This document shows, piece by piece, positions 32,080-48,827 of a DNA stretch of 64,000 bases (position 1 is its first letter; the number at the start of each line of letters is the position of its first letter). The notes below the pieces were generated by a model. It did not search any database, had not been told where the DNA came from, and worked only from the letters and a program-made list of their open reading frames with translations. The stretch is from NCBI GenBank assembly GCA_954871525.1, contig OX940862.1, positions 10,994,501 through 11,058,500 on the forward strand, in the 5' to 3' direction. The position numbers and the translations under genes are program-made. The stretch comes from Parietaria judaica (lineage: Eukaryota > Streptophyta > Magnoliopsida > Rosales > Urticaceae).

Positions 32080-32310
32080 TTACCCAAAATTATTTGTGCT
32101 ATGTATGTATACTAAAATTTTGGACCAGTTTTTTGCTTGATTTGGAAGATGACCTTCCTCAGATTATTCCGGCAGTTGACCTCGTAATGGCGTTGACAAA
32201 TGCGACTCCTTATTTTCTTGTAAGGAGCCACCTGAAATACATATTTATTTATTATCAGATATTAGTTCCATTTCAAGGGAAAATTAAATTAAAAGAAAAC
32301 GTTATCTAGC
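32080..32310 (-). pseudogene. Decayed copy of the last exon of the 4CL-like gene
   Basis: This segment is homologous to 44,580-44,790, which holds the terminal exon, acceptor and part of the last intron of the 4CL-like gene 12 kb away. The acceptor (CAG|GTGGCTCC) and the start VAPYKKIR are still readable, but a small deletion shifts the frame straight afterwards and the peroxisomal C-terminus is lost. No other 4CL exons were found nearby, so it is a partial duplicate. Confidence 0.75.
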
Positions 32311-33289: not shown

Positions 33290-34424
33290 TCACTGGTTCG
33301 CTTTTTCTTCAGCCGTCCTCTTGCGAATTTCATGAGCCGTGTTGAATATCCCGAGCGTAGGCGCGTTGCAAACAAAGCACTTCTTTTTCTTCGAGTGATG
33401 CTGCAAAGGAATATATAAACACGTCAAACAACGAACAGAAGAACACTAAAGCGCTTGTGTAACAATGCTAAAATCGCGCAATATTGACCTTTAAGGCGCA
33501 ATGCTCGCAGAAGAAGTGTTTGCATTTGGTGACAACAGGGTCCACAAAAGGCTGACGACAGATGAAACAAGCAAAGGGCAGCCCCTCGTCATCTTCGTCG
33601 TCGCCCGATTCTCCACTCCCACTATCGCCCTCGGCTCCCAGAGCCAATTTGCGCTTTCTAATCTTCTCAGCCTCGTCCCAGTCCCTCTCTAACTGCCACC
33701 CTGACTTGTAATCGCCGCGATCGTGCATGAACTTGCACGAGTCTCCGTAGCCACAGTAGCCCGTCTGTTTGTAGTCCGTGCATATGTCGGGCTGGTAATC
33801 GAATCTAGCCGTGGCTCTTATATGGGCCGAGGCACGCAATGGCCCGTGAGAGCCTCCGGCCTTCTCACTGGCAACGGTATGCTCTCTCCGGAACCCAGCC
33901 TTGTGATCGGTGTAGCCGTGGATGCCTTTGTAGAGCTTCTCGTCACCCCCGCCCGGCTTTTTCCCCTTCAGAGCGGCTTTGGCTTGCTTCAGAACCCTCT
34001 CGCGGATTGCCCGTGCATCTCTAGAGAAGTCGGTCTCAGTTTCAAGCGTAGCGGTCGCTCTGCTGTCGTTTTGGACTTGAATTTCCCTCGAGGATTCGAA
34101 CTGGAAAACGGTGTCAGGTGTTTCATTCGATTCGGCGGTTCTGGTGTTTTTGGAAGACGCGGTCGAGAAAGAGAGCTTGTTGTCGGGTTTCGGGGTCTTT
34201 TTCTTGGTGTGGAACGAGGTATTCAAGTCTTCGTCGTCGTCGTCTTCGTCAACAACTGCTCGTTTCCTGATATTTTTGTTCTTCAATGGCTTCCGAAAGA
34301 AGTTGCAGACTGAAAATTCAGACGATGGCGAAAAATCAGTGACGGAAACATAAATCAAAACAAAAACAAAAACAAGAAAATGTGTACCTTGTTCAGTGTC
34401 AGGTTTATCATCGGAATCTGCCAT
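33290..34424 (-). CDS. RNF113/CWC24-type zinc-finger splicing factor (CCCH + RING)
   Basis: Exons on minus: 34388-34424, 33489-34309, 33290-33400; 322 residues. Domains in order: an acidic, low-complexity N-terminal third; a CCCH zinc finger at about 190-209 ([20 protein letters not shown]); a charged linker; and a RING finger at about 260-300 ([25 protein letters not shown]), all zinc ligands present. This is the architecture of human RNF113A and yeast Cwc24, spliceosome-associated proteins also implicated in ubiquitin signalling. The start codon lies only five bases from the boundary of a 9-kb hAT-type insertion whose 8-bp duplication CATGTAGG includes the ATG. The native leader and promoter are thus displaced to beyond 43,413. 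The frame stays open upstream into the transposon end, which carries a splice acceptor at 34,469-34,470, so its present leader is probably transposon-derived. Confidence 0.92.
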
Positions 34425-34429
34425 GTAGG

Positions 34430-35190
34430 CAGGCCCGGCCAAAGCACTAGGCAGCTTGGGGCAACGCCCTAGTGAGAAATAAAACAAGTCAGTTCCATTC
34501 TACAACTCACGAAAACTATAAAACCGAGCGAATGTAACGACATACACCATCATAGAAACACCCCTAAAGCAGAGCATGCATCACTACGATATCCTAACAC
34601 GCATCACCATGCTTGAAACTTAAACTGGAACACTTCCAATCCAAAGAGAGCAAAATCTCAGACCTTTGGACTTGTCCACGAACAAGACTTCTTCCGTCGG
34701 GACGGCAGAGAGAGAGCCGCCGGAGAGAGCGTCGTCGTCGATGTCTTCGGTGCTGATATTGGCCCGCCACGCCTTCTTTCCCAAACCCTAATTCGAGCTT
34801 GCAGATGTCTGTCAGTTAATCTGTTTCAATGGAGTGTTAAGATACGATAAGCCAGGCCCGGCCCAACCACTGGGTTGCCCCAAGGCCTCTTACTGAGGAA
34901 TAATTGAACAATTCGTATTTTAGGCCCATATAAAAAAAAAAAAAACTCACTAAAGAATATCTACAAGTTCTGAAAAGTGGGCCCTCTCTCATATTTCATT
35001 AGTTAACTTCTCTTGTTCTGATATATTATACAATTTTTTAATTTAATATTCCTTATTCAGTTCCATAGCTTAAAAAAAAATTTAAAACATAAACATTATC
35101 TTTTCGATTTTACATTAGATAATTTACTTATTCATAGAAAATTTATTTTCATTTTTCTATAGTAAATATTCTCTTTGTTATATATATATA
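34430..35190 (-). repeat. Left-end block A: two hAT left ends flanking a NOP53 exon-1 remnant
   Basis: Left ends start at 34,430 and 34,853 (CAGGCCCGGCC...). Between them, on minus, lies a damaged first exon of a NOP53-type gene (34,664-34,786). The segment KKAWRANISTEDID and the end VPTEEVLFVDKSK are readable, but the start codon region is deleted. A donor AAAG|GTCTGAG follows, and an acceptor CTCACTAG|GGCG sits in the left end at 34,468. The block points toward the RNF113-like gene. Confidence 0.75.
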
Positions 35191-35276
35191 TATGATAAGC
35201 TAAACAATGCAAATAAAATATTAATTATCAACCGAAAACGTGTTTCGTGTATTAATGATTTTCTTATAATTAAAGG

Positions 35277-38200
35277 GAACAAGAGCGGTACAAAAATTCA
35301 ACAAATAGTTACAATTGGCGGCGTCCACCGATTGAGGAGGTAAACAATAACGCAAGTTTTTTTTAAAAAAAATTATAGATGTTTATACTATTTGATTTTA
35401 TTATTTAATGACGTTTTTTTTTTTCTCAAATATTTTACAGGCTTTGGCGAAATTGATTACGCAATTTCACAAAGTCCACTCCAGGCAGTGTATAGACGAG
35501 GCCGAACTAGCTGACCATATCGCGGGTTTGACCTTAAGTCTAGCCTCTTGCCTATTTAGGTATTCAAGAATCATCATATTCAGTGTTGATTAATATTAGG
35601 GTTTAGAATTTCCGAAACCGTGTATAATTGCACATTTGGGCTGATCGATACTGAATTTTTTTCCCTTCAATTTGCAGGAAGAAGTTATCACGTTTATCTG
35701 TAAATGCGAACGGCTCTCTTGTTCCGAAGGATTGTACTGACAAGAATTTGATCAAAAATAACTTGTGGTGAGTTTTATATAGTGACATGAGTTTGAAATA
35801 AATTTCGTCTATTTTCAAAGGTCGTAAATTTTTTGGTACTGGGTATACGAGTTCAGGTTAAAAGTTTTGGTCGCGATACCGAAGGTTCAGCCACGATTTG
35901 CAGTTGCAATATGAAAGAAGTACCCGACCATGAAATTGTTGGATCGATATTAAAGTTTTTAATATAAATAATGAACGTAACGAGTTACGGCGGAATTTCA
36001 AAATTTCTTTTTAATATGAAAACAGATTTTCGACATATTAAAATAACCATAACGTTAAAACGATTATCATACATGCAAAATAAATTTATTACGTAAACAA
36101 TGATGGGATAAAATTCCGGAAAATCATATAACAGTTATAGGATTAAGAAGACTTACAAATCCGGAATTTATTCACGGTTTTCGTCGTCGATCTTCGCGAG
36201 TCGTCCCTCCGTCTTCAATCAAACAACCACGATGGATTCGATGCTATGACTTTCGGATATTTTTGAGATGAAGAGTGTGGGCTCTTTATGAACAAAGAGA
36301 TAAGAATGAAGAACTTTTTCCTCAATCTTTCTCTTAAAATTTGCGCATATATTTAGAGAGCAAAACCCAAAAAAAACTTATTCTCTCTGACTTTTGGTAA
36401 ACAACGCACAGTCGCACAAAAAAGAGTATTCCTTTTTGCTATCTAATAGCAACTATATATAGGAGTAGGTTAGGGTTTTATTTTAAAACTAAAATCCCTA
36501 TTTTCTCTCCTATCTTTTAAATCTGATTCATCTTTCTAGCTTTAAATATATATATCAATATATATATATATATATATATATATATCAATGCTACAAATCG
36601 TTGGATTTGGTAAAGACCAAGTCCATTGACCAAATCTCCCCTTTATTATTATGCACATATTGATTTGGCAAAAATATCTAAAGATTAATTTTCCCTTTTT
36701 TTATTTATTTATTAAATTCGCATAAATGTGTAATTATCAATATAATTATACAACTTATGATATTTAATAAAGGTGATTAAAATAAAATAACTATTTATTT
36801 ATTTTATCATGAGAAAATAATTACCATAGTATAAATCGCAATTTATACATAAGAGAAAATTATCAAACCAATGTTGTACTTAAAAATATTTCAATTCAAT
36901 AATTGAACTTAAAGTGAGATTTCAATAAATCAACTTTACATATTTTTAATACTTATTATGTTCATCAAAATCTCGTCCGAAAGTCTAACATTGAGACCTC
37001 ATGGACCCACATGAACGAAGCTTTAGAATAAAGTCCGGACACAAAAGTTCACAAACTTTTCCCGAACTTTTAATTCTTAATATTGGTCGATTCCACTAAA
37101 GGACCAATACTGACAATCTATAAGTTCATATGCGTTCTTATTTCCGTTTGATGTGATACAAATATTCTTCACACGGTCCACGGTGTATTTACGATGTTAC
37201 CCTTTGTGTGTATCATTAAGTAAGAGGAATGTAAAATTACCGTTTTACCCCTTAGTTATCATTTCATCAACTCCTTTGTTGTTTGTGAATGAGAAAAACA
37301 TAAAGTGAGATGTCACAACATGTCACATGTTTAATCCAGAGAATATATTATTCAATGAGTACCAGGCCCGGTTTGTTCATTCACACTTCAAAGAACAAAG
37401 CATGATGTGATACTAATGTCGTAGCATTCTTATAACACAAATTTCATATCTATGAATCACATAATTCAACGAGACAGTATTATGACACCAACCGTCGGGT
37501 CTTTGATCCATCATTTGGATCTTGCCCATTAACTAGTCAAGTGTCACAAAGTGTCACAAGAAATTATGTACCCACTTCAGGATTTAGGTAATTACGAAAA
37601 TACCCCTCGTTTGTGATTTTGAAGCTTCGAGTAATGAAACGGTTTTGCCTCGAACTTCAAAGTGTCACAGGTCTAGTTCAATGTCTTCATTAAGACATCA
37701 AGAATAAACTCCAGAGTCACAACTCTCAATATCACAAGATCCGATATCAGTAGTTTATTCGAACAATCATTAATCGGATTCGATTGCCCCATCGGATCCT
37801 AAGATTGCGAACTGTTTATTTTAAACTTATCAAGAAGAGGTCTCTTGTTAAGTCTGTACTTAAGTCTTCTTTCGTTGATGATAGTTTCAGGGCGTAGACA
37901 TATATGCATAAACACAAACTTAAATAAATAAGAATGAATACTTAATCTTTATTTAATTCTCAGCAAAAGAACATAATCGTATTATTACATCGAGTACTTT
38001 ATTAATAAACTTAATTATTTACTAAAAGGTCCTTCATGTCTCCTTTGTGGGCATAAATCCCAACAGAAATCGCTTCTGAAAGTGTACTTGGACCCGACGA
38101 AATCGGTAAGGATCCGAAAAGAAGACCATGTTTCGGTTGAACTCAGGTTTCAGTGATTCTGAAGGATTGATTATGAAAAAACTAGTTTATATAGCGATTC

Positions 38201-38444
38201 TTTGGGTTTAGTCGGAAACGTGAGGTTTGTTTAAACTGAATTATGTTTTTATTCTTCTGAAAAGGTTCATGAAAAGGAATTTCTACTGAAAGACTTGAAA
38301 ATCGAAGGGCTGGTCGGAGAGGACCGTAGGCTCGGCGAGGTTTGCTCGAAGAGGTTGTACAGAATTCTGATGGCGAAAAGCGGATCCATCAAAACCGACG
38401 ATGTCGAGAATGGAGCTGACTTCTTCCAAGGTCAACCATCATGA
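35277..38444 (+). pseudogene. EME1: EME1-type crossover junction endonuclease, 5'-truncated and broken
   Basis: Exons: 35277-35339, 35441-35559, 35678-35767, 35857-35936 continuing at 38071-38105, and 38265-38444. They encode the C-terminal half of EME1, the partner of MUS81 that cuts recombination intermediates. Recognisable pieces are RYKNSTNSYNWRRPPIEE, HSRQCIDEAELADHIAGLT, KKLSRLSVNANGSLVPKD, LVAIPKVQPRFAVAI, KKYPTMKSLLKVYLDPTKS and RLGEVCSKRLYRILMAKSG, ending at the family C-terminus. The 5' exons are missing, replaced by hAT sequence. A TGA stands at 35,912-35,914 where a Trp codon is expected (before KKYPTMK). Exon 4 is split by a solo LTR with a 5-bp duplication. I see no way it can make a full nuclease. 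It was probably carried here inside the hAT unit. Confidence 0.9.
35937..38065. mobile_element. Solo LTR, 2129 bp
   Basis: Begins TGTTGG and ends CCCAACA, flanked by a perfect 5-bp duplication GAAAT (35,932-35,936 and 38,066-38,070). There are no gag/pol frames and no second LTR, so it is a solo LTR left by LTR-LTR recombination. It lies within an exon of the EME1 pseudogene. Removing it together with one duplication copy restores the exon junction ATG AAA TCG CTT, which dates the insertion after the gene segment existed. Confidence 0.9.
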
Positions 38445-39973
38445 ACCGATTCATGATCGTCACTCTTGAACTAAGAGCTATGAACTATGTAAAGCCATTT
38501 CAAATTCATGTTATATCGGCTTATTTGGTGGATCTTCCTTGTCAAGGAATAAGAGCTATTCTTCTATACACACACACACACATATATATATATAATACAT
38601 AAATAGCTCACAATAAATACAGTATGGGTTTGTAATCTTAATGTAAACGCACACGAATAGTACCGTTAACCGTATAACCTCCGTAAATCCATATTCTAAT
38701 AACGTCAAGATCATATTAGAGAATTTTATGATACTCGAAACTATTTATTTACTTAGTATTAAATTAATAGTATTCTCTAAAATTACAACTGGCAAAATAT
38801 AATTCAGTCGAGATTGTTAACTTTTATCTGAGTATTAATTTAACGATATTCTAGTATGATTCTCTTTTAGATTAAAGAATTAAGAAACGATTTGTCATTC
38901 CCCGTATATATAACAAATGGGTCTATATATTTCCCAATTTTAATGTTCTTATATCGGAAATATCGGTTTCAATTCGGGATTATACCAATTTTTACTATGA
39001 TTGAAAAATCGTTCCTCAAAAAAGTTAACTGGCCCCGGTTTCTCATCTTTTAAATAGAAATTGTAAGAAATGCCCATTATGTATCAAAAGTTTAAGAAAA
39101 ATGCTCATACGTGAGAGTAAAAATTACACACAATGGACATTTTTGTTAAACCTTTGACACAAAATGAACATTTTTTAAAATAACTCTATTTTAAAACCGG
39201 AGCCGGTAATCGGGAATTGGTAAAATACCCAGGGAGATTTCTCCAAGGTGCGTTATTAGAAGGGAATCACTACCGCTTTCAAAAAAAAAAAAAAAAAAGG
39301 GAATCAGTTTCACTACCATTCTGAGATTCCCCAGAAAATCTCGTCACTTAATTTTTAGTTTCTCCGGCTATGTTAAATATTTTCAGGCTTTCTGAATCCG
39401 GATCCAATTGCTGCTGCGTAAAAGTTGCTTTTTTTTACCGGGACGAGAACAAGATTGGGGTAAAGCTTAAGTTTTTACCGCTAGTCGACGGTGGTATTGA
39501 ATGGGGATTAGAAATCTGAAAACAGAATCGAAATTTTAAAGATTTTCATATTATTGAGGTAGAAAGAAACGACTTCATTGCTTGTTAATGTTTTATAATC
39601 GTACGGATATACCGATTTTTACGTGTATATATCCACAGTAATAAGGTATAAAGAATTATTTTAATGCTTCGGAAATATATATAGATATATACAACATCAT
39701 CAAAATATGAATGTGAAGCCAAGGAACAAAATTGGATCGCATCGTAATGATAAGCATTCATGTCTGTGAGTGATAATAATAAGCTTGTAGATTACAGAGG
39801 TAAAGGGCTCATAAAACTCAAAAACACTACAAACTCTGATCATCATTTTAACTTTTTCCCTTCATCATCAACCTAGCCAAGTACAAAAATTACCAAGCTT
39901 TAATTAGTAAAAAAAAGAAAAAAAGGTAAAACAAGCCACGGGGGGTTAAACTAAAACGTTGCTTACCGGCTCT
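38445..39973. other. 3' flanks of EME1 remnant and RRM gene
   Basis: Between two convergent gene segments inside the hAT unit. There is a (CA)n(TA)n microsatellite at 38,569-38,594 and an A-run near 39,281-39,298. No gene. Confidence 0.5.
39058..39186. repeat. Small inverted-repeat (foldback) element
   Basis: AAATGCCCATTATGTATCAA with GTTTAAGAAAAATG on the left is mirrored on the right by an inverted copy ending CAAAATGAACATTTTTT. The arms are about 45 bases with several mismatches. Flanking TTTTAAATA / TTTTAAAATA are similar but not identical, so ends and class remain open. Confidence 0.5.
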
Positions 39974-41500
39974 TTACTCGAATCTAATCTTCTTTGGAGC
40001 AGAACAAACGTTGCCAACCTGAAGAACCACGGGAAAAAAACAATAATTAGAAAATGGTATACTATAAGAAGAAACTATGTATAACTTTCTTACGATCTCT
40101 GGGCATTCGTATTCGATTCCGGCAGCAGCTATTCTCTTCCGGCGGGCCTCGTCTTTCTTCATGATTTTCTCCACCATTTTCTGGTGTTCATCCAATGTTC
40201 TTTCCTGGACATTTTAGTCATAGCTTGTCAAGACGTGTTCCGTAAACAAAAACAATAAATACCAAAAATTATCATTTTACGAATAGTTTACCTTGTCGTG
40301 ATTCTTTCGCTGAATTTGTAGTCTGTCGAATGGCCTGAACCGAAAATTGGAAACTTTCCACCTGTGGATAAGACGGTCAGAGATATAGTAGCAACAAAAT
40401 TGAATCTGGTGCATAATGTTTAAACTTAAAACACAATTCCGACATAATATAGTCGATCACTTACAGTCTAGGATGAATACGGTCGGAAGGGACGAGGTGG
40501 ACTTGCAATAGGTGCTCAAATAGCAAATAGTTATGCATCGTCTCCGCTACAATTTTTGCTACCTGAACAACAAAATAATATGCCCATTAAGAAAACGTAA
40601 CATAGCCAAAGACAGCAAGATAATGTACACGAAAAAGGGAGAAGATTCTAACCCCGGGATCAACGAATTCGATGAAGCCATAATGTTTCGACCTTCCCGT
40701 CTGTTTAACATGAGAAAATGTAGAAAGAAAATAATAATTAGCATCAAGAAATTGAGAGTTGGGAATTACTTGAGACAAACATGGAACTTGGGTACAATCA
40801 TAAAGGCTATGATATCGCATAAATAAAGCATGCATTATTTTAGCATTTCTAATTTGCTAAATGGAAACGCTATTCGGCATCGAGAACCTGGTTTCCGGTT
40901 TAATTGAACATGGGCGTTCGATTTGATCGAAAAAGAAGCCGATACGATAAGCAAAGTATTAAACTAAAATCTAATTGCATAAAGCCAGACCTTTTTATTC
41001 CTTGCAATTCTCAATCTCTTGGTTGCCCCAAATTGTAGGAAAAAGCCTGAAAATCACACAGAGAAATCCAAAATAATCAATAAACAATTCAACAAAAAGC
41101 ATGTTGCTAACGAGAAATCAAATTTACAGAAACCGAAAATCCCACCTTCCATCTCCTTCTCGTAGAATCCATGAGGAATTCGACCAACGTAGACAACTTT
41201 AGAACCTTCCTCCAATGCAGGCCCGGCCCAAGCACTGGGCCAACGCCCTAGTGAGAAATAAAACAAGTCAGTTCCATTCGTAACGACATACATCATAGAA
41301 TCTTCTTCGAATTAAACTGGAACAGTTCCAATCCAAAGAGAGCAAAATCTCAGACCTTTGGACTTGTCGACGAGCAAGACTTCTTCGGTCGGGACGGCAG
41401 AGAGAGCGTCTTTGGTCGACTTCTCGTCAATGTCTTCGGTGCTGATATTGGCCCGCCACGCCTTCTTCCCCTTTCGCGAGGTCTTCGCCTTCTTTCCCAT
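39974..41500 (-). CDS. Chimeric gene: NOP53 first exon + hAT-derived exon + NIFK-type RRM protein
   Basis: Exons on minus: 41356-41500, 41146-41247, 40991-41046, 40653-40700, 40465-40562, 40292-40361, 40094-40204, 39974-40018. They give 225 codons, open throughout, all GT-AG. Residues 1-48 (MGKKAKTSRKGKKAWRANIS...) are the NOP53 ribosome-biogenesis factor N-terminus. About 14 residues (GRWPSAWAGPA) come from the hAT left end at 41,218. From LEEGSKVVYVGRIPHGFYEKEMEG onward it is the NIFK/MKI67-interacting RRM protein: RNP motifs VVYVGRIP and SKHYGFIEF, then HEHQ-type tail ERTLDEHQKMVEKIMKKDEA and IEYECPEI. NIFK proteins act in nucleolar pre-rRNA processing. Its native N-terminus, about 50 residues, is missing. 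NOP53 lacks its EDFF stretch here. Both parents are nucleolar, so the fusion could be functional; expression is untested. Confidence 0.7.
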
Positions 41501-41985
41501 CTATTCTCCTCACTGCTCAAACCCTAATTCGAGCTTGCAGATGTCTGTCAGTTAATCTGTTTCAATGGGCAACAATGGAGTGTTAAGTTACGATAACCCA
41601 GGCCCGGCCCAACCACTGGGCACTTAGTGAGAAATAATTGGACAATTAGGCCTTGCGACATCGTATTTTAGGCCCATATAAAAAAAAAAAAGACTCACTA
41701 AAGAATATCTACAAATTCTGAAAAGTGGGCCCTCTCTCATATTTTATTGCTTAATTTCTCTTGTTCTGCTATATTATACAATTTTTTAATTTAATATTCC
41801 TTATTCAGTTCCGTACCTTAATTCTCTTATTCCCTACATTATTAGTGAAGAGTTTAAAAACAAAATTTAAAACATAAACACTATCTTTTCGGTTTTACAT
41901 TATATAATTTACTTATTCATAGAAAATTTATTTCATTTTTCTATAGTAAATATTCTCTTTGTTATGTATATATATATATATATAT
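41218..41985 (-). repeat. Left-end block B: two hAT left ends flanking an intact NOP53 exon 1
   Basis: Left ends start at 41,218 and 41,599. NOP53 exon 1 with its ATG and about 100 bases of leader lies between them. The leader contains AAACCCTAA on plus, a telo-box-like motif common in ribosome-biogenesis promoters. Further upstream (41,665-41,680 and 41,727-41,735) are TGGGCC motifs of the site II type on the minus strand. A splice acceptor CTCACTAG|GGCG at 41,247 faces outward into the RRM gene. Confidence 0.75.
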
Positions 41986-43413
41986 AAATATATATATAAA
42001 CAATTAAAATTATTCTCTTATAGTGTACACGAGGTATATAACCCGCGCGTAACGGTTTTTTTTTTCTTAGCAAAGAGAAATTTTGATAGTTTAATATTTT
42101 TTTATGCGTATGGTATTAAAGCTATTTGATTTTTATTTTATGTTGTTATTCAATCTTTTTTAAGTTTAACTACATGTATATGTAATTAGACACAAAGAGT
42201 AGTATACGTAATCAAGTATCATTTCTTAAAGAAATACATTATTTACATCTGGTAAAAGATTATTACAATATTCCTTTCGAAAAAGAAGTCTGTATGATTT
42301 AGATCAAATAAAAGAATTTTACATTATCGATTTTAAAAAAAAAGTATTTCTCATAAATATATATACAAATATATACATACACATGCATTATTCTATTAAT
42401 AAGACTTGGGCATATATTTAAAAAGTGTTATACTTTGTTTGGTTGACTTCTGTTGCTGCAAAATTAAATTCATATAGCTCTTATAAGTATCACTGATTAA
42501 TCAAATTATATATGTTTGTAAACAATTTAATGCAGTATTGTATGTAATAGTATACTTAAAAAAAAGATTGTCAAATGAGATTGTCAAACAGTATACTAGC
42601 AAATGTGCTATGCACATCCGTTCTTTTGCGCCTATTTAATAAGTAACAACAATGAATAATAATCATTGTTTATGTTGTTTTATTTATTTTCTACTACTTT
42701 ATATACTCAAGTGAGATTATCAAACAATATATGAAACAAATATATTTCATATCGTTGTTTATATCGTTGAGATTATCAGTTAATAGAATAGTAAGAGGAA
42801 ATTGATAACTAAAATGTTTATATTTCATTGAGTGATTTTATCAAACAGTATAGTTTCATCAATTCCAAAATTAAAAAATAATACACTTTGTCATATTTTC
42901 ATCTCATTAACCACAACAAAATAGTGTAAAAGTCAATTAATCTCAAACACTAACAATTCAAGCAAAGAATACGAAATGAATAATCTCACATAACCATCAA
43001 CACAGAGGAAGAGATAGAAACCAAAAAAAAAAAAAAAATCGCTTGAAAGCTTTAAGGATAAGATCAACAAATAGATTGAGAAACAAAGACCTATGTACCT
43101 CCGCCGGTGGAGATTCAAGTGTGCGTCTTGAACTGATAATCTGAGTTTTTTTTTTTCAGTTAACCTCAACGTACATCGTCGATCGAAGTTCGGCGAGAAA
43201 GAGAGTGTGTGAGAGGTGAAGAAAATAGTCGAGACAAGCAAAGAAAAAAGTATATGAAATGCAAAGAGTAGTCTATTAATGTGTTGTATAAGTTTTGTTA
43301 TATCGTATAGCTCCTGCAATACTGTAATCCAATAGCTCCTGCAATATGACTCTCAAAAAAAGTCTCATATTAATGATTCGCCCAAGGCCCCGAAAAGGGT
43401 TGGGCCGGCCCTG
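41986..43413. other. Right part of the hAT unit, non-coding
   Basis: AT-rich interior without transposase. (TA)n tracts lie at 41,965-41,998, with weak open frames only. It ends in the terminal inverted repeat GGGCCGGCCCTG at 43,402-43,413. Confidence 0.6.
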
Positions 43414-44585
43414 CATGTAGGGATTCACAATTTGAGCTCAAACAGGCACGGACTCCTGAACCCTAGATAAGTAACGAGCATGAATTATATGATAGGATTT
43501 TCAGTCGGAAGCTAAAGAAAAGCAAATCGCCATTAAGGAGCTCGAGTATTCCTGAGCTTGCAGCTTCTGGCGAAGGAAGATCAGCTCCGTCGCGGTGAGT
43601 GGGACGAGAAGACAAATCTAGGGTTTCCTTTTCGCGCAATTCATTTCAATTCTCCACGTGGAAAGATATCTGCCGTCGGATTGGGCGACTATTTGACCGA
43701 CCAAAGATCTAAAAATTGTGAAAAACCGGCGGTTCATTCACCTGCCTTGATAAATACGAAGGACACCGCCGCCGACATTATTAAGAAGAAACGCACTACG
43801 GTATAAAACGGTTAATTGCCCGTTTCAGATGTGAATCATCGGTGAAAGATCGGTTAACTCGATTTTAGTTGTATGATAAGACGCTTTTGAATAAAAAAAT
43901 AATATATATCATGTCAATGAAGTGTGCAATCTCGAGTTTATAAATAAAAAAAACTCTGAGGTTAATGAATTGATGTTCATTGGTTAAGTGTATGAAGTCC
44001 ATAGTCTTCGGGATAAATGTGGAAAGAAAATATTTTACATTAAAATATATATTAAACCTCGAAGAGAATTAAAAACAAAACCAAATCAATAATAAACTCA
44101 ACCAAATCAACCACCAACTCAGACCTAAAAATTGTCCTAAAGCACGACCAAAAAGTGTTTTAAACGAATAAAAATTCCAAAACTAAACTTTAACCCATAA
44201 TTTGTGTATATATAAGAAGAAAAAAAGTCTCTGAAATTGAATTCAACCCTAAAATAAATATTCCTCAATCAAATCATGCCTTAAAAAATCCCTAAAATCA
44301 AACATAACATAAGCTCAAAATCAACGAAACCATAAATCTGCCCTAAATCAACTACATTGTAACCTAAATCAACAATAAAATACACAATTTATGACCACAT
44401 ATAAAGAGAAAAATTAACATATTAAAGAAAAAGAAAAAAACATATTGAAGAGTTACATAAAGACTAAAATACAAAGAAAAAGATGTGATATGATCGTTTT
44501 ACAAAATAAGAAGCTAGATAGAGACAAAAGTACAAAACCCGAAGAATGTCGCCGATTATTTATCCTACGAATAAATAAATGTATA
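43414..44585. other. Original RNF113 upstream region, then 4CL 3' flank
   Basis: The right TSD copy CATGTAGG (43,414-43,421) joins to what was the native leader of the RNF113-like gene before insertion. 43,422-43,620 is GC-richer, with AAACCCTAG on the minus strand near 43,615-43,625, consistent with a displaced promoter. An open frame at 43,558-43,806 (82 residues) is unassigned and may be a leader-overlapping chance ORF. The rest is AT-rich. Confidence 0.4.
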
Positions 44586-45355: not shown

Positions 45356-47895
45356 TACGCACGGTACGACTGCTGTGTCGAGAATATCTGGGTGTCCGAG
45401 AAGTATAGCCTCCAATTCTGCCGGAGCAACCTAAAAATAATAGTGAAAAAAGAATGAGACATATATATTAATCAAAGTAAATAATTATAATAGGGTTAAT
45501 TGTGATAAATATACATAAGTTATTCTAAAATTAGACGGCATAGTTGTAAGTTTTTTTTCTTCTTCAGAGATAAATGTAAGAGTTTACTTTACAAGGATTT
45601 TTTGTATTTTTTTTTTACATATTGGGTACTTTTAAGCCACAGTGAAGTTGAACTAGGGTATGTGCATTATTCATACCGTGATAAAGTGAAATTTGAGTAC
45701 ATTTACGATTTATCAATAAATAAAAAACTTGAGTCCCAGAGTACAACTTGAATACATTTGCCATCACATTGATCCTAATAATAATATGCTGTATCATATT
45801 ACTTATTTGAGAAATAATCTAATAAGTATACAAAGCACTGAATAGATACAAGAAGTATACATATTACATATATATATATACCTGATATCCATTGTGCTTG
45901 ATGAGCTCCTTAATCCGATCAACGACATAGAGGAACCCTTCATCGTCAAAACGACAAAGATCCCCAGTTCTCAGCCACCCGCCGTCGGCAATAGTCTCGG
46001 CCGTGGCTTCTCGGTTCCCGAGATACTCTTTCATGATCGTGGGGCTCCTCAGCCACAATTCTCCTTCCTTGTTAGGTGAGAGCGGTTTTCCGGTTTCCAC
46101 GTCAACTATTTTTGCACTGAATCCCGGGACCAAGATCCCGCATGAAGCCGGCCGAGCCTTCCCATCTTCGCTGGAGATGATGAGTGTCGCTGCGCCGGAG
46201 CTTTCGGTCAAGCCATAGCCGGGTCTCATCTCTATCCATGGAAATCTATTGGTATGTACTTAATGAGAAATACGTAAGATCGCCACGAATATATTAAAAT
46301 TAAACTATAATTAGGAGATAATAAAAATAGGAATGACAAATTAGTTATTAATGTGTCATGTTAAGTAAATATTTGGATATTTAGTGGCATATTCCTCATA
46401 AATTTACGTTTTCGATTTATTTTGTCTCAAAGTTTCTTTATTAATGTTTTCCGGCCGTTATTTGACACATTAATTAGACAAAGAATTATATTCATTTTAA
46501 CATTATTTTTTTGTGTTAATCTATCAACAATCTATGTATTACATCAATTTGACTTCCAAAAATTAAAATTTTATCAATATGATCTTCATAAAATAGTTTA
46601 GATTAGATAAATATTTATTTGGATTTACGCTACGTACAAAGATTTAAACATTCCTAATTAAACACTAAAATGTAGCCCTAAACACATTAGTAGAACTCTT
46701 TATACATTAACACGGTTAGAGAATTTATTTTTTATTATAACGATTATAAATATACGGAGTAATAATAAGTTAGTCGTGTACCAGTTATAATTAATTGAGA
46801 TATATTTAATTAAAGTTGTTAAATTATTGAGTATTAATTTAAAAAATCATTAGATAATCACCTTTGCGTGAACTCGTCCATAACATCTTTGCTCAGCGGC
46901 GCAGCCCCAGAGCCCATCCTCCTCACCCCCTTCCACTCGGCTCCGCCGCCTCTCGCCGCACGCTTCACCATCGCTAGAATCACCGGCGGCACAGCCGGAA
47001 TATTCGTCACCGCGTAAGCCTCCACTGCCGCCAACATCGCTCCAAGCTCGAACCGTCGCATCACCACCGTCGTTATCGTCCCGCCGCAGAACAACCCCAG
47101 CCCGAAGAACACCAGCCCGTACACGTGGAACATCGGGATGAAGCATAGGAACACGTCGTTCCCTGATCCAGTGGCGTCCACGCTCCACCGGAGGAGTGTC
47201 ACTACTGACACCAAGTTGGCGTGAGTCAGCACCACACCCTTGCTCGCTCCGGTGGTCCCCGATGAGTAGAGGATTGCCGCGGTGTCCGCCGGAGCCGGGC
47301 TCTCCCTGGCGTCCGGCTTATTGAAAGGTTTGCAGCTGGAGATTAGCTCCTCGACGGAAAGGTGCCCGGAAGTAGGGTTAGCTTCAGTGACGATGATCGG
47401 GATGCGGGCGATCAACACTTTTTGAAGCTCTTCCGGGTCGGAGACAACTAGTTTCGGGGCCGAGTCGGAAAGCTGCTTGGCAATCTCGGAGGCGGTGTTG
47501 AGCGGGTTAGCTGTGGTGAGGACGGCCCCGACATAGAGCACGGCGAGGCAGATCACAGGGTAGAGGACAGAGTTGGGCGCGAGCACAAAGACGACATCAC
47601 CATTTTGGATGCCGAGCGTATCTCGCAGACCGGCAGCGAGGGAAAAGACGGAGCGCTGGACCTCCGCATAGGTCACACGCCGCCCCGTGGACGCATCAAC
47701 GAGAGCAACGCGCGACTCCGCTTGGTGCGGGGGCGGGAACTGCGAGAGGACGAAGCCGGCCACATCGACCGGAGTGTTAGGCTTTGGGCCGGGTAGAGTT
47801 TCGTAAGCCGAGCAGTAAATTCCGGTGCTCTCGTCAAATGTGCTGGTCACGACCGGTAGGTGCTGATCGCCGGCGTATTTTCCCGGGGACGCCAT
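44586..47895 (-). CDS. 4-coumarate:CoA ligase-like acyl-activating enzyme, peroxisomal type
   Basis: Exons on minus: 46862-47895, 45882-46245, 45363-45430, 45113-45215, 44586-44711; 564 residues, GT-AG throughout. It is an ANL-superfamily adenylate-forming enzyme that activates a carboxylic acid to acyl-AMP and then acyl-CoA. Motifs: the AMP-binding P-loop [12 protein letters not shown] (about 210-221), [18 protein letters not shown] (about 345-362), [26 protein letters not shown] in two runs (about 433-460), and the catalytic-lysine region [12 protein letters not shown] near the end. The last three residues, AKL, form a type 1 peroxisomal targeting signal, placing it with OPCL1/4CLL enzymes that act on jasmonate precursors or fatty and cinnamic acids rather than with cytosolic lignin 4CLs. 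The substrate cannot be read from sequence. A decayed copy of the last exon lies at 32.1 kb. Confidence 0.92.
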
Positions 47896-48827
47896 GGAAG
47901 CCGGAGTCCGTGATTGCTGGGCGGACCCTGTGAATGATAATTTCTCAGTTTAGTTTGTTAGGACTAATTAAGAGTGATTAACAAAGTTGCAGTGTAAGAT
48001 TAGAAGACTAATCATAAGATTAATGAGATAATTTACGATTAATATAGAGAATATCTCTAATTCTCTTCGGTAAGTACGTCAAGCTTGGGAGATTCGGTAT
48101 CAAAATTAAATAAGAACGTCTGATAAATGCCATTATATATATATATTAATTATATTTGGTGCTTAGTTTTCGCGCCGGCTAGACTATATCAACCGGTGGT
48201 TAGTTAATACTGAAATAATTATAATAATAACATTAATTATGATGCAGACATTAATGACACAATCTAATTATTGTTTAAGAATAATTTGTCGAATTAAGAT
48301 AATAAATTAGGAAGGAAGAGACACAAATCAACTTAAAAATAAATATGTTGTATTTGCCGTCCTAACTATATGATGATTTAATGATGTAAATATTATTTTT
48401 TCTTATATTTTTATGACCAGGAAAATATAAATATGATATTTGAGATTGAAAGTAGAATAATTCGTCATGTTCTGTAGAAAGTTTTCTGTTATTGTTACTA
48501 GAAATATTGGACGAACCACAATATTTGGAGGAGATCACATGTATAGAAAAACTATCATCTAATAATATTGTTTCTATATGTATAGCTTTAATTGCCGGGT
48601 TGAAAATTTTGGTAAAAATTTCAAACCCGAATCTCGATTCGACATGATCGATTCCCGACCCGATTTCAACCCAAACCCAAACTCTAGCTCGAGCTTTAGT
48701 TTAAAAAAAAGAAAAGAAAAAGCAAATCGAGTCTAAAAAACCCGATCCCAGCACGATTTCTGATATAAGTATTAAGTACAACATATTTCCTTTTTACTTG
48801 ATTTCTTACAATTTTACCCTTTGAAAT
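47896..48827. other. Upstream region of the 4CL-like gene
   Basis: AT-rich. No clear TATA box at the expected place. From about 48,590, degenerate CCCGA/AACCC words suggest an old transposon remnant into which the SINE at 48,828 was inserted. Confidence 0.4.

Follow-up and report, generated by a model that had tools for sequence, protein, structure and literature searches.

Most of what is known about exon shuffling by DNA transposons comes from isolated examples. In rice, Pack-MULEs have amplified gene fragments, some of which occur in chimeric transcripts, with a bias toward the 5ʹ ends of genes, and engineered promoter/exon gene-trap vectors carry a promoter, a first exon, and a splice donor that trap a downstream gene. 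Two described systems are close to the locus reported here. Pack-TYPE elements, including Pack-hAT, are non-autonomous elements with terminal inverted repeats (TIRs) and captured gene pieces, and the available part of their description covers exon shuffling, a hAT example giving a new splice donor, and capture via remobilised neighbouring insertions (PMC8903248). In Brassicaceae, according to the accessible part of a second study, MITEs spread E2F sites, that is, a DNA transposon disperses a regulatory motif beside genes (PMC13317346). Among the literature matches listed, neither a NOP53-hAT nor a hAT-borne first-exon cassette like the present one was found, which is a weak negative.

The locus lies in a window (the whole stretch of DNA analysed, 64,000 nt) that is part of contig C4 of a 538.7-Mb plant genome. 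Judging from the sequence, a hAT-type transposon has probably turned into a first-exon cassette that is mobile and amounts to a gene-trap vector of natural origin.

The chimeric gene and its composite carrier

The chimeric gene is located on the minus strand and runs from NOP53 exon 1 through a transposon end into a NIFK-like RRM body. Its coding sequence of 675 nt is spread over eight exons (41500-41356, 41247-41146, 41046-40991, 40700-40653, 40562-40465, 40361-40292, 40204-40094, and 40018-39974) and encodes 224 residues plus a stop, with no internal stops and with GT-AG borders at all seven introns. A sequence-only reading had predicted 225 codons without a stop and six further introns after the transposon junction, both of which were borne out, and its junctions 41356/41247 and 41146/41046 were exact; its three-part layout of the gene, its reasoning on the frame, and its attribution to a transposon were right as well. 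As it had stated, NOP53 exon 1 (41356-41500, 48 codons plus 1 nt) ends in phase 1 at the donor AAAG|GT. The chimeric intron (41248-41355) is a shortened NOP53 intron 1 with a branch-like CTGAC, and its CACTAG acceptor sits at the transposon join. There follow 30 nt of transposon right terminus (41218-41247), coding GRWPSAWAGP, and then the NIFK-like body (39974-41217), which comprises the remainder of exon 2 and exons 3-8 to the stop, begins ...ALEEGSKVVYVGRIPHG, and finishes ...KKIRFE. Two details of the earlier reading needed correction. The transposon end that it called the left end is, by TIR and TSD (8-bp duplication) anatomy, the right end of the element, the left end lying at 43413; and the transposon contributes about 10 residues instead of about 14, because ALEE is native to NIFK, as our own reading of the tandem loci described below indicates, where the upstream part ends ...VGKPLE and the TSD is CATTGGAG.

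The NIFK-like body carries an RRM_1 domain (Pfam, E=5.9e-11) and could be aligned along native NIFK proteins in a homologue comparison. The closest named relatives are Rosales proteins, with 76% identity to Morus for NIFK, and with 77% identity to Trema, Ulmus, and Cannabis for the MFAP1 gene considered below. Lysine-rich stretches can serve as nucleolar signals, and the lysine-rich N-terminus MGKKAKTSRKGKK of the chimera would stand where NIFK had the lysine-rich MGAKAKKSLKKKM. Two other readings were discarded: as a source of the protein, native NIFK exon 1 spliced directly to the transposon acceptor would be in the wrong phase by our own reading, and a simple NIFK retrocopy was ruled out by the presence of introns.

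The chimeric gene is carried within a composite hAT element of 8984 bp (34430-43413, minus strand), which was delimited by a TIR scan and its flanks. The composite has the left end CAGGGCCGGCCC at 43413 and a right end finishing in GGCCGGGCCTG at 34430, and is flanked on both sides by the perfect 8-bp TSD CCTACATG (left copy 43414-43421, right copy 34422-34429, minus strand). The original hAT, termed TE1, is carried along at 41599-43413 with its own right end at 41599. It is followed by the fossil TSD of the insertion at the NOP53 locus (41591-41598, reading GGTTATCG in the window), which opens the NOP53 5ʹ region (41501-41598) with its telo-box at 41519-41527. Site II TGGGCC motifs were found at 41606-41611, within the TE1 end, and further upstream in TE1 at 41671-41676 and 41726-41731. 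At the other side of the composite, the NIFK 3ʹ flank meets a second cassette at a TA repeat near 35190. This second cassette (34430-34875, minus strand) consists of a TE1 end (34853-34875), NOP53 exon 1 without the ATG, the intron, and a right end. The right TSD copy includes the start codon (34424-34422) of a CCCH-RING gene (33290-34424, minus strand), presumably RNF113/CWC24-like, with zf-CCCH and zf-C3HC4 above the Pfam cut-off, whose 5ʹ end received the element. The second cassette, with its ATG deleted, lies directly before this start and possibly now serves as the promoter and 5ʹUTR of that gene. Elsewhere in the window, we observed a minus-strand AMP-binding gene at 45880-47950, which we take to be 4CL-like, and an apparent fragment of its last exon at 32140-32260, 14 kb off and adjoining the RNF113-like gene.

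Three tandem NIFK genes at C4 10.73-10.754 Mb (L036, L037, and L038) have a simple element in exon 2, with the perfect TSD CATTGGAG, one insertion event, and the native exon 1 upstream. The same chimeric coding sequence is open at these three other C4 loci, so that all 224 codons are open in four, and the window copy differs from the others by one third-position change in 675 nt, the protein being identical. We infer that the NIFK insertion first occurred at the tandem loci, and that a composite using outer ends later relocated the NIFK body over about 280 kb. The composite in the window, bounded on the left by the end belonging to the NIFK copy and on the right by that of the second cassette, would have carried the NOP53-NIFK chimera to the RNF113-like start codon. 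Each tandem gene is preceded by three repeats of a stretch that contains the NIFK 5ʹ region and the beginning of exon 1.

Origin and spread of the NOP53 cassette

hAT elements have short TIRs starting with CA(G)GG. The ends of the present element, CAGGGCCGGCCC and GGGCCGGGCCTG, are inverted at 11 of 12 nt, and hAT-type terminal repeats and 8-bp TSDs were both found; reading of the ORFs of the element revealed no recognisable transposase. The native NOP53 gene at C4:6410721, a match to the Nop53 family, has a 1615-bp hAT copy just upstream (L040:2993-4607) with GCTTATCG on both sides as its TSD, while the same site is empty in a second NOP53 gene on C1 (L043). The source was fixed by this empty site together with the fossil TSD GCTTATCG inside the copies, which was present at the source and in 19 of the 26 loci compared (native gene and twins included). 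This shows that the hAT landed on C4, about 90 bp 5ʹ of the start codon of NOP53. About 20 kb from the native gene, at 6.43 Mb, there is a local NOP53 copy (L041) with a stop in exon 1, which runs into an unrelated gene.

A typical cassette consists of the TE1 right end, the fossil GCTTATCG, the NOP53 promoter, exon 1, most of intron 1, and a second right terminus that starts at a shared TTATTT and reads CTCACTAG|G. As the native NOP53 intron ends in TTATTTTTATTAG|ATC, the captured stretch ends a few bases short of the native acceptor, and a new acceptor comes from the terminus. At the acceptor, CTAG is kept in 40 of the 49 loci and L081 has CAATAG, while TE1 ends have CACTAAG or variants. The AG was lost in L042 and L088 and is absent from L056, and L009, L017, L020, L022, and L026 are without the cassette terminus in its usual form. 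The linker length was a multiple of three in 37/40. The telo-box was retained in 23 of the 27 rows compared (native gene and near-twins included); the pairing of telo-box and site II is typical of plant ribosome-biogenesis promoters, as stated in the available part of PMC3022908. The TE1 end was not found beside L014, L025, L061, L063, and L064. At L014 and L025, the NOP53 cassette and the right end remain although TE1 is gone, which resembles an excision of the inner element by which the cassette would have been left immobile. The cassettes from L007 to L088 show few substitutions and many different combinations drawn from a small number of short deletions, as would be expected from slippage in every copying cycle or from recombination among copies.

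The element has gained a promoter, an ATG exon, a splice donor, a branch-like site, and a border AG acceptor. This may have happened when DNA copying continued from the element into NOP53, across the promoter, exon 1, and intron 1, and the template then switched at the shared TTATTT back to a copy of the right end of the element. Alternatively, two neighbouring hAT insertions flanking NOP53 exon 1 could have been remobilised together, a mechanism described for Pack-TYPE elements in the accessible text of PMC8903248. The composite in the window fits this route, with outer ends used, inner ends kept, and the TSD CCTACATG. However, no more than about 30-51 nt of the second element follow the acceptor in the cassette, the join is at the shared TTATTT, no second left end was seen, and no second hAT was seen in NOP53 intron 1 at L040. 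We consider joint remobilisation possible but doubtful, and prefer copying with a template switch.

A search of the genome with a 31-nt right-end pattern (≤3 mismatches) gave 117 sites, 67 forward and 50 reverse, compared to 0 for the backward control. By our own reading, the cassette is present at 49 loci; these represent 48 distinct insertions, as L019 and L028 have a common right flank. In this count, twins were merged (L011/L012, L028/L029, L065/L068, and the four NIFK copies); both native NOP53 genes were excluded, as was the local NOP53 copy (L005/L041). We additionally sampled 24 of 27 perfect right-end sites outside the earlier set (C10:36384285, C20:24703044, and C21:6738947 were left out), of which 15 had the cassette (two being twins) and nine did not. 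Most loci with both flanks readable have 8-bp duplications, and the TSD is perfect at L039, the NOP53 source L040, L042, L022, and L081, the last being the TSD-positive locus of a four-locus set in which the left end lay outside the other three pieces. In a 12-locus set, six TSDs were perfect and three more had one mismatch; the flanks of L007 showed no TSD match, and no left end was found for L014 and L019. Host gene sequence (the NOP53 promoter, exon 1, and intron) thus lies between element ends, and the cassette has been mobilised as a unit to new sites with TSDs, as in Pack-TYPE elements. The element evidently spread to at least 48 distinct sites.

These copies change the picture of the chimera. 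The sequence-only reading had proposed a single fusion event; the chimera itself stands, but the exon from NOP53 and the acceptor from the transposon travel together as a single cassette. The single-event picture was too small, because the cassette precedes many other genes and the NIFK copy in the window is the cargo of a composite.

Genes and reading frames at the insertion sites

Transcripts would start in the NOP53 promoter, and exon 1 would be spliced to the transposon acceptor (AAAG|GT to CACTAG|G) and so into the host gene. For an insertion in coding sequence, the fusion would replace the host promoter and N-terminus; for an insertion before the ATG, it would replace the 5ʹUTR, and loss of the NOP53 ATG would leave the native start in use.

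When the sense ORFs of 43 of the 49 cassette loci were scanned, 24 gave a Pfam match above the cut-off to a gene just downstream in the same direction. The families were PPR (two), Nkap_C, ribosomal L11, L18p and L12, L30, GEX2, LSM, ANAPC11, TPT transporter, BCCIP, KIN17, GTP cyclohydrolase I, PNO1-type KH, MA3, NIP7 (at the twin L029), RRM (NIFK), CCCH/RING, DEAD, Brix, S1, MFAP1, and Med18. By our own reading, the downstream genes presumably include RRP43-, UTP18-, FCF2-, BUD31-, PRP22-, and HAS1-like ones. An apparent enrichment for ribosome-related genes was noted among them. The antisense ORFs of 20 of 23 loci gave no Pfam matches. At L020:1871-2917, the ORF of the TPT-family transporter starts with MELT, coded by NOP53 intron sequence. 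For the nine right ends without the cassette, sense ORFs were scanned in seven, with two matches (Iso_dh and a BED finger). The small sample of 24 extra sites does not establish that cassette copies lie nearer to genes than non-cassette copies: Pfam matches downstream were alike for the two (3/15 vs 2/9, p=1), while by our own reading of genes at the same sites the counts were 9/15 and 1/9 (p=0.03; 9/14 distinct, p=0.03).

Nine insertions were placed within coding sequence, five of them well supported. Every one of the nine has an ATG with an open phase-1 exon and keeps the frame of the gene. At NIFK, NKAP, L023, and L081, the native codons upstream of the insertion can still be read, and counting the TSD a single time brings back the frame (by eye for NIFK), and MFAP1 homologues show that MSVTAGVS is missing; the placement of the GTP cyclohydrolase, DEAD-box, RRP43-like, and L077 insertions in coding sequence comes from the downstream side only. 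Among the insertions at or before the start codon, with the gene identified via Pfam or our own reading, only 5/24 have an ATG, an open exon, and the frame. Fisher's test of coding against start or upstream insertions gave p=5e-5 with nine coding cases, 0.006 with four, and 0.002 with five, although the frame test is partly circular because some coding cases were recognised by their open fusion frame. The insertion in the PPR gene at L007 is a counter-example, being out of frame. Over all cassettes, 23 of 49 are without a recognisable ATG and eight have an in-frame stop. On the cassette tree, which is weakly resolved, the labels for ATG loss and for insertion in coding sequence are scattered, and ATG loss as a single sub-lineage was unsupported.

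It might be asked whether the three parts (transposon end, NOP53 fragment, and NIFK gene) simply came to abut in frame by chance, since any one in-frame junction is a one-in-three event. This is vanishingly improbable, being refuted by the cassette at 49 loci, the fossil TSD, the empty sites, and the nine in-frame fusions within coding sequence. The view that the agreement at the transposon boundary goes beyond chance, expressed from the sequence earlier, is further upheld by a 23-nt right-end pattern (≤3 mismatches), which occurs four times in the window and never in 100 shuffles.

A more serious alternative is that the cassettes are ordinary Pack-TYPE debris, in which a dead NOP53 fragment makes no fusion protein and the open frames are left-over host exons, the insertion sites reflecting accessible chromatin at housekeeping-gene 5ʹ ends, which hAT elements may favour. 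The loss of the ATG in 23 loci, the eight in-frame stops, and the similar Pfam-match rates in the 24-site sample are in its favour, as is the NKAP paralogue on C1, which is intact with an empty site, so that the NKAP chimera need not be essential. What speaks against debris is that nine of nine coding insertions are in frame with a usable ATG against 5/24 elsewhere; these insertions sever the native promoter and N-terminus, and the bodies have nevertheless stayed open, with an ORF of 462 aa for NKAP and, for MFAP1, one still open after 366 aa where the piece ends. Together with the divergence data below, this makes debris an improbable account, and we continue with the gene-trapping cassette.

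Divergence, selection and comparison with known systems

We compared the window copy with L036. The coding sequence differed at 1/675 positions, the introns at 4/852, and the 200 nt before exon 1 at 0/200, while the rest of the element differed at 36/1324 and the 3ʹ flank at 39/2606. The exons of the chimera are thus less diverged than all flanks (75/4130, with the 0/200 included; p=1.9e-4), and so are its introns (p=0.002), with no difference between exons and introns (p=0.39). The single change in the 675 nt of the NIFK chimera argues against debris. Either selection or gene conversion could account for the conserved block, and conversion could explain it because the introns are conserved too. 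Were the block identical through conversion among the C4 copies, the chimera might be a recently silenced by-product. This is consistent with introns and upstream 200 nt as conserved as the exons, and with the near identity of L036 and L037 (two mismatches and one gap column over 5.5 kb). Against it, about 280 kb separate the window copy from the tandem array, the 224 codons are open in four loci, and, as the rest of the window element has diverged, conversion would have to stop near the edges of the gene. We regard conversion without selection as rather unlikely.

Other measures gave a mixed picture of selection on the chimera. The NIFK body departs at 8/82 columns that are invariant among native proteins, compared to 0 to 7 for single natives in the same test. 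Across copies, NOP53 exon 1 has 20 nonsynonymous and 6 synonymous distinct changes, an N/S of 3.33 against 3.05 under neutrality, and substitution densities are 0.033 in the promoter, 0.026 in the exon, and 0.023 in the intron. NOP53 exon 1 thus looks as if it were neutral and without amino-acid constraint across copies, which speaks for the debris explanation. Distinct exon indels were multiples of three in 11/18 cases versus 30/100 in non-coding sequence (p=0.015), or in 12/16 after merging a split event and dropping a 5ʹUTR insertion (p=0.001), for which the repeat structure of the exon may be a partial cause. Between the NKAP chimera and the intact C1 paralogue, dN was 0.025 and dS 0.095 by NG86, and 0.028 and 0.074 by YN00; this divergence is possibly mostly older than the insertion.

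More tentatively, and with somewhat less than even confidence, we suggest that one hAT gene-trapped dozens of genes by swapping in the NOP53 promoter and first exon, making working fusions where it landed in coding sequence and often shedding the ATG in 5ʹUTRs, and so bringing genes for splicing, the ribosome, and housekeeping under a single ribosome-biogenesis promoter of the telo-box/site II type. As one captured exon was tried before many genes in one genome, the rules of fusion survival (frame, start codon, and compatible promoter) can be read from replicates. If transcripts exist, this would directly exemplify how a transposon can connect many genes to a single growth-related promoter, with the N-termini of conserved proteins such as NIFK, NKAP, and MFAP1 changed.

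Compared to rice Pack-MULEs, the cassette differs in its hAT superfamily with an 8-bp TSD, its single donor gene, and its self-contained splice unit. In the part of the Pack-TYPE account available, exon contributions are single cases (PMC8903248), whereas here one captured promoter, first exon, and donor, with an acceptor at the border, stands before many genes, with the frame kept at coding sites. Unlike the Brassicaceae MITEs, as described in the accessible part of PMC13317346, the cassette moves a telo-box promoter region and an ATG exon with an intron instead of a single binding site. In contrast to engineered gene-trap vectors, it is natural, and its acceptor lies on the transposon border, so that it could work in exons and 5ʹUTRs. 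By its anatomy, the cassette reads as a Pack-TYPE hAT variant that would behave like a gene-trap vector.
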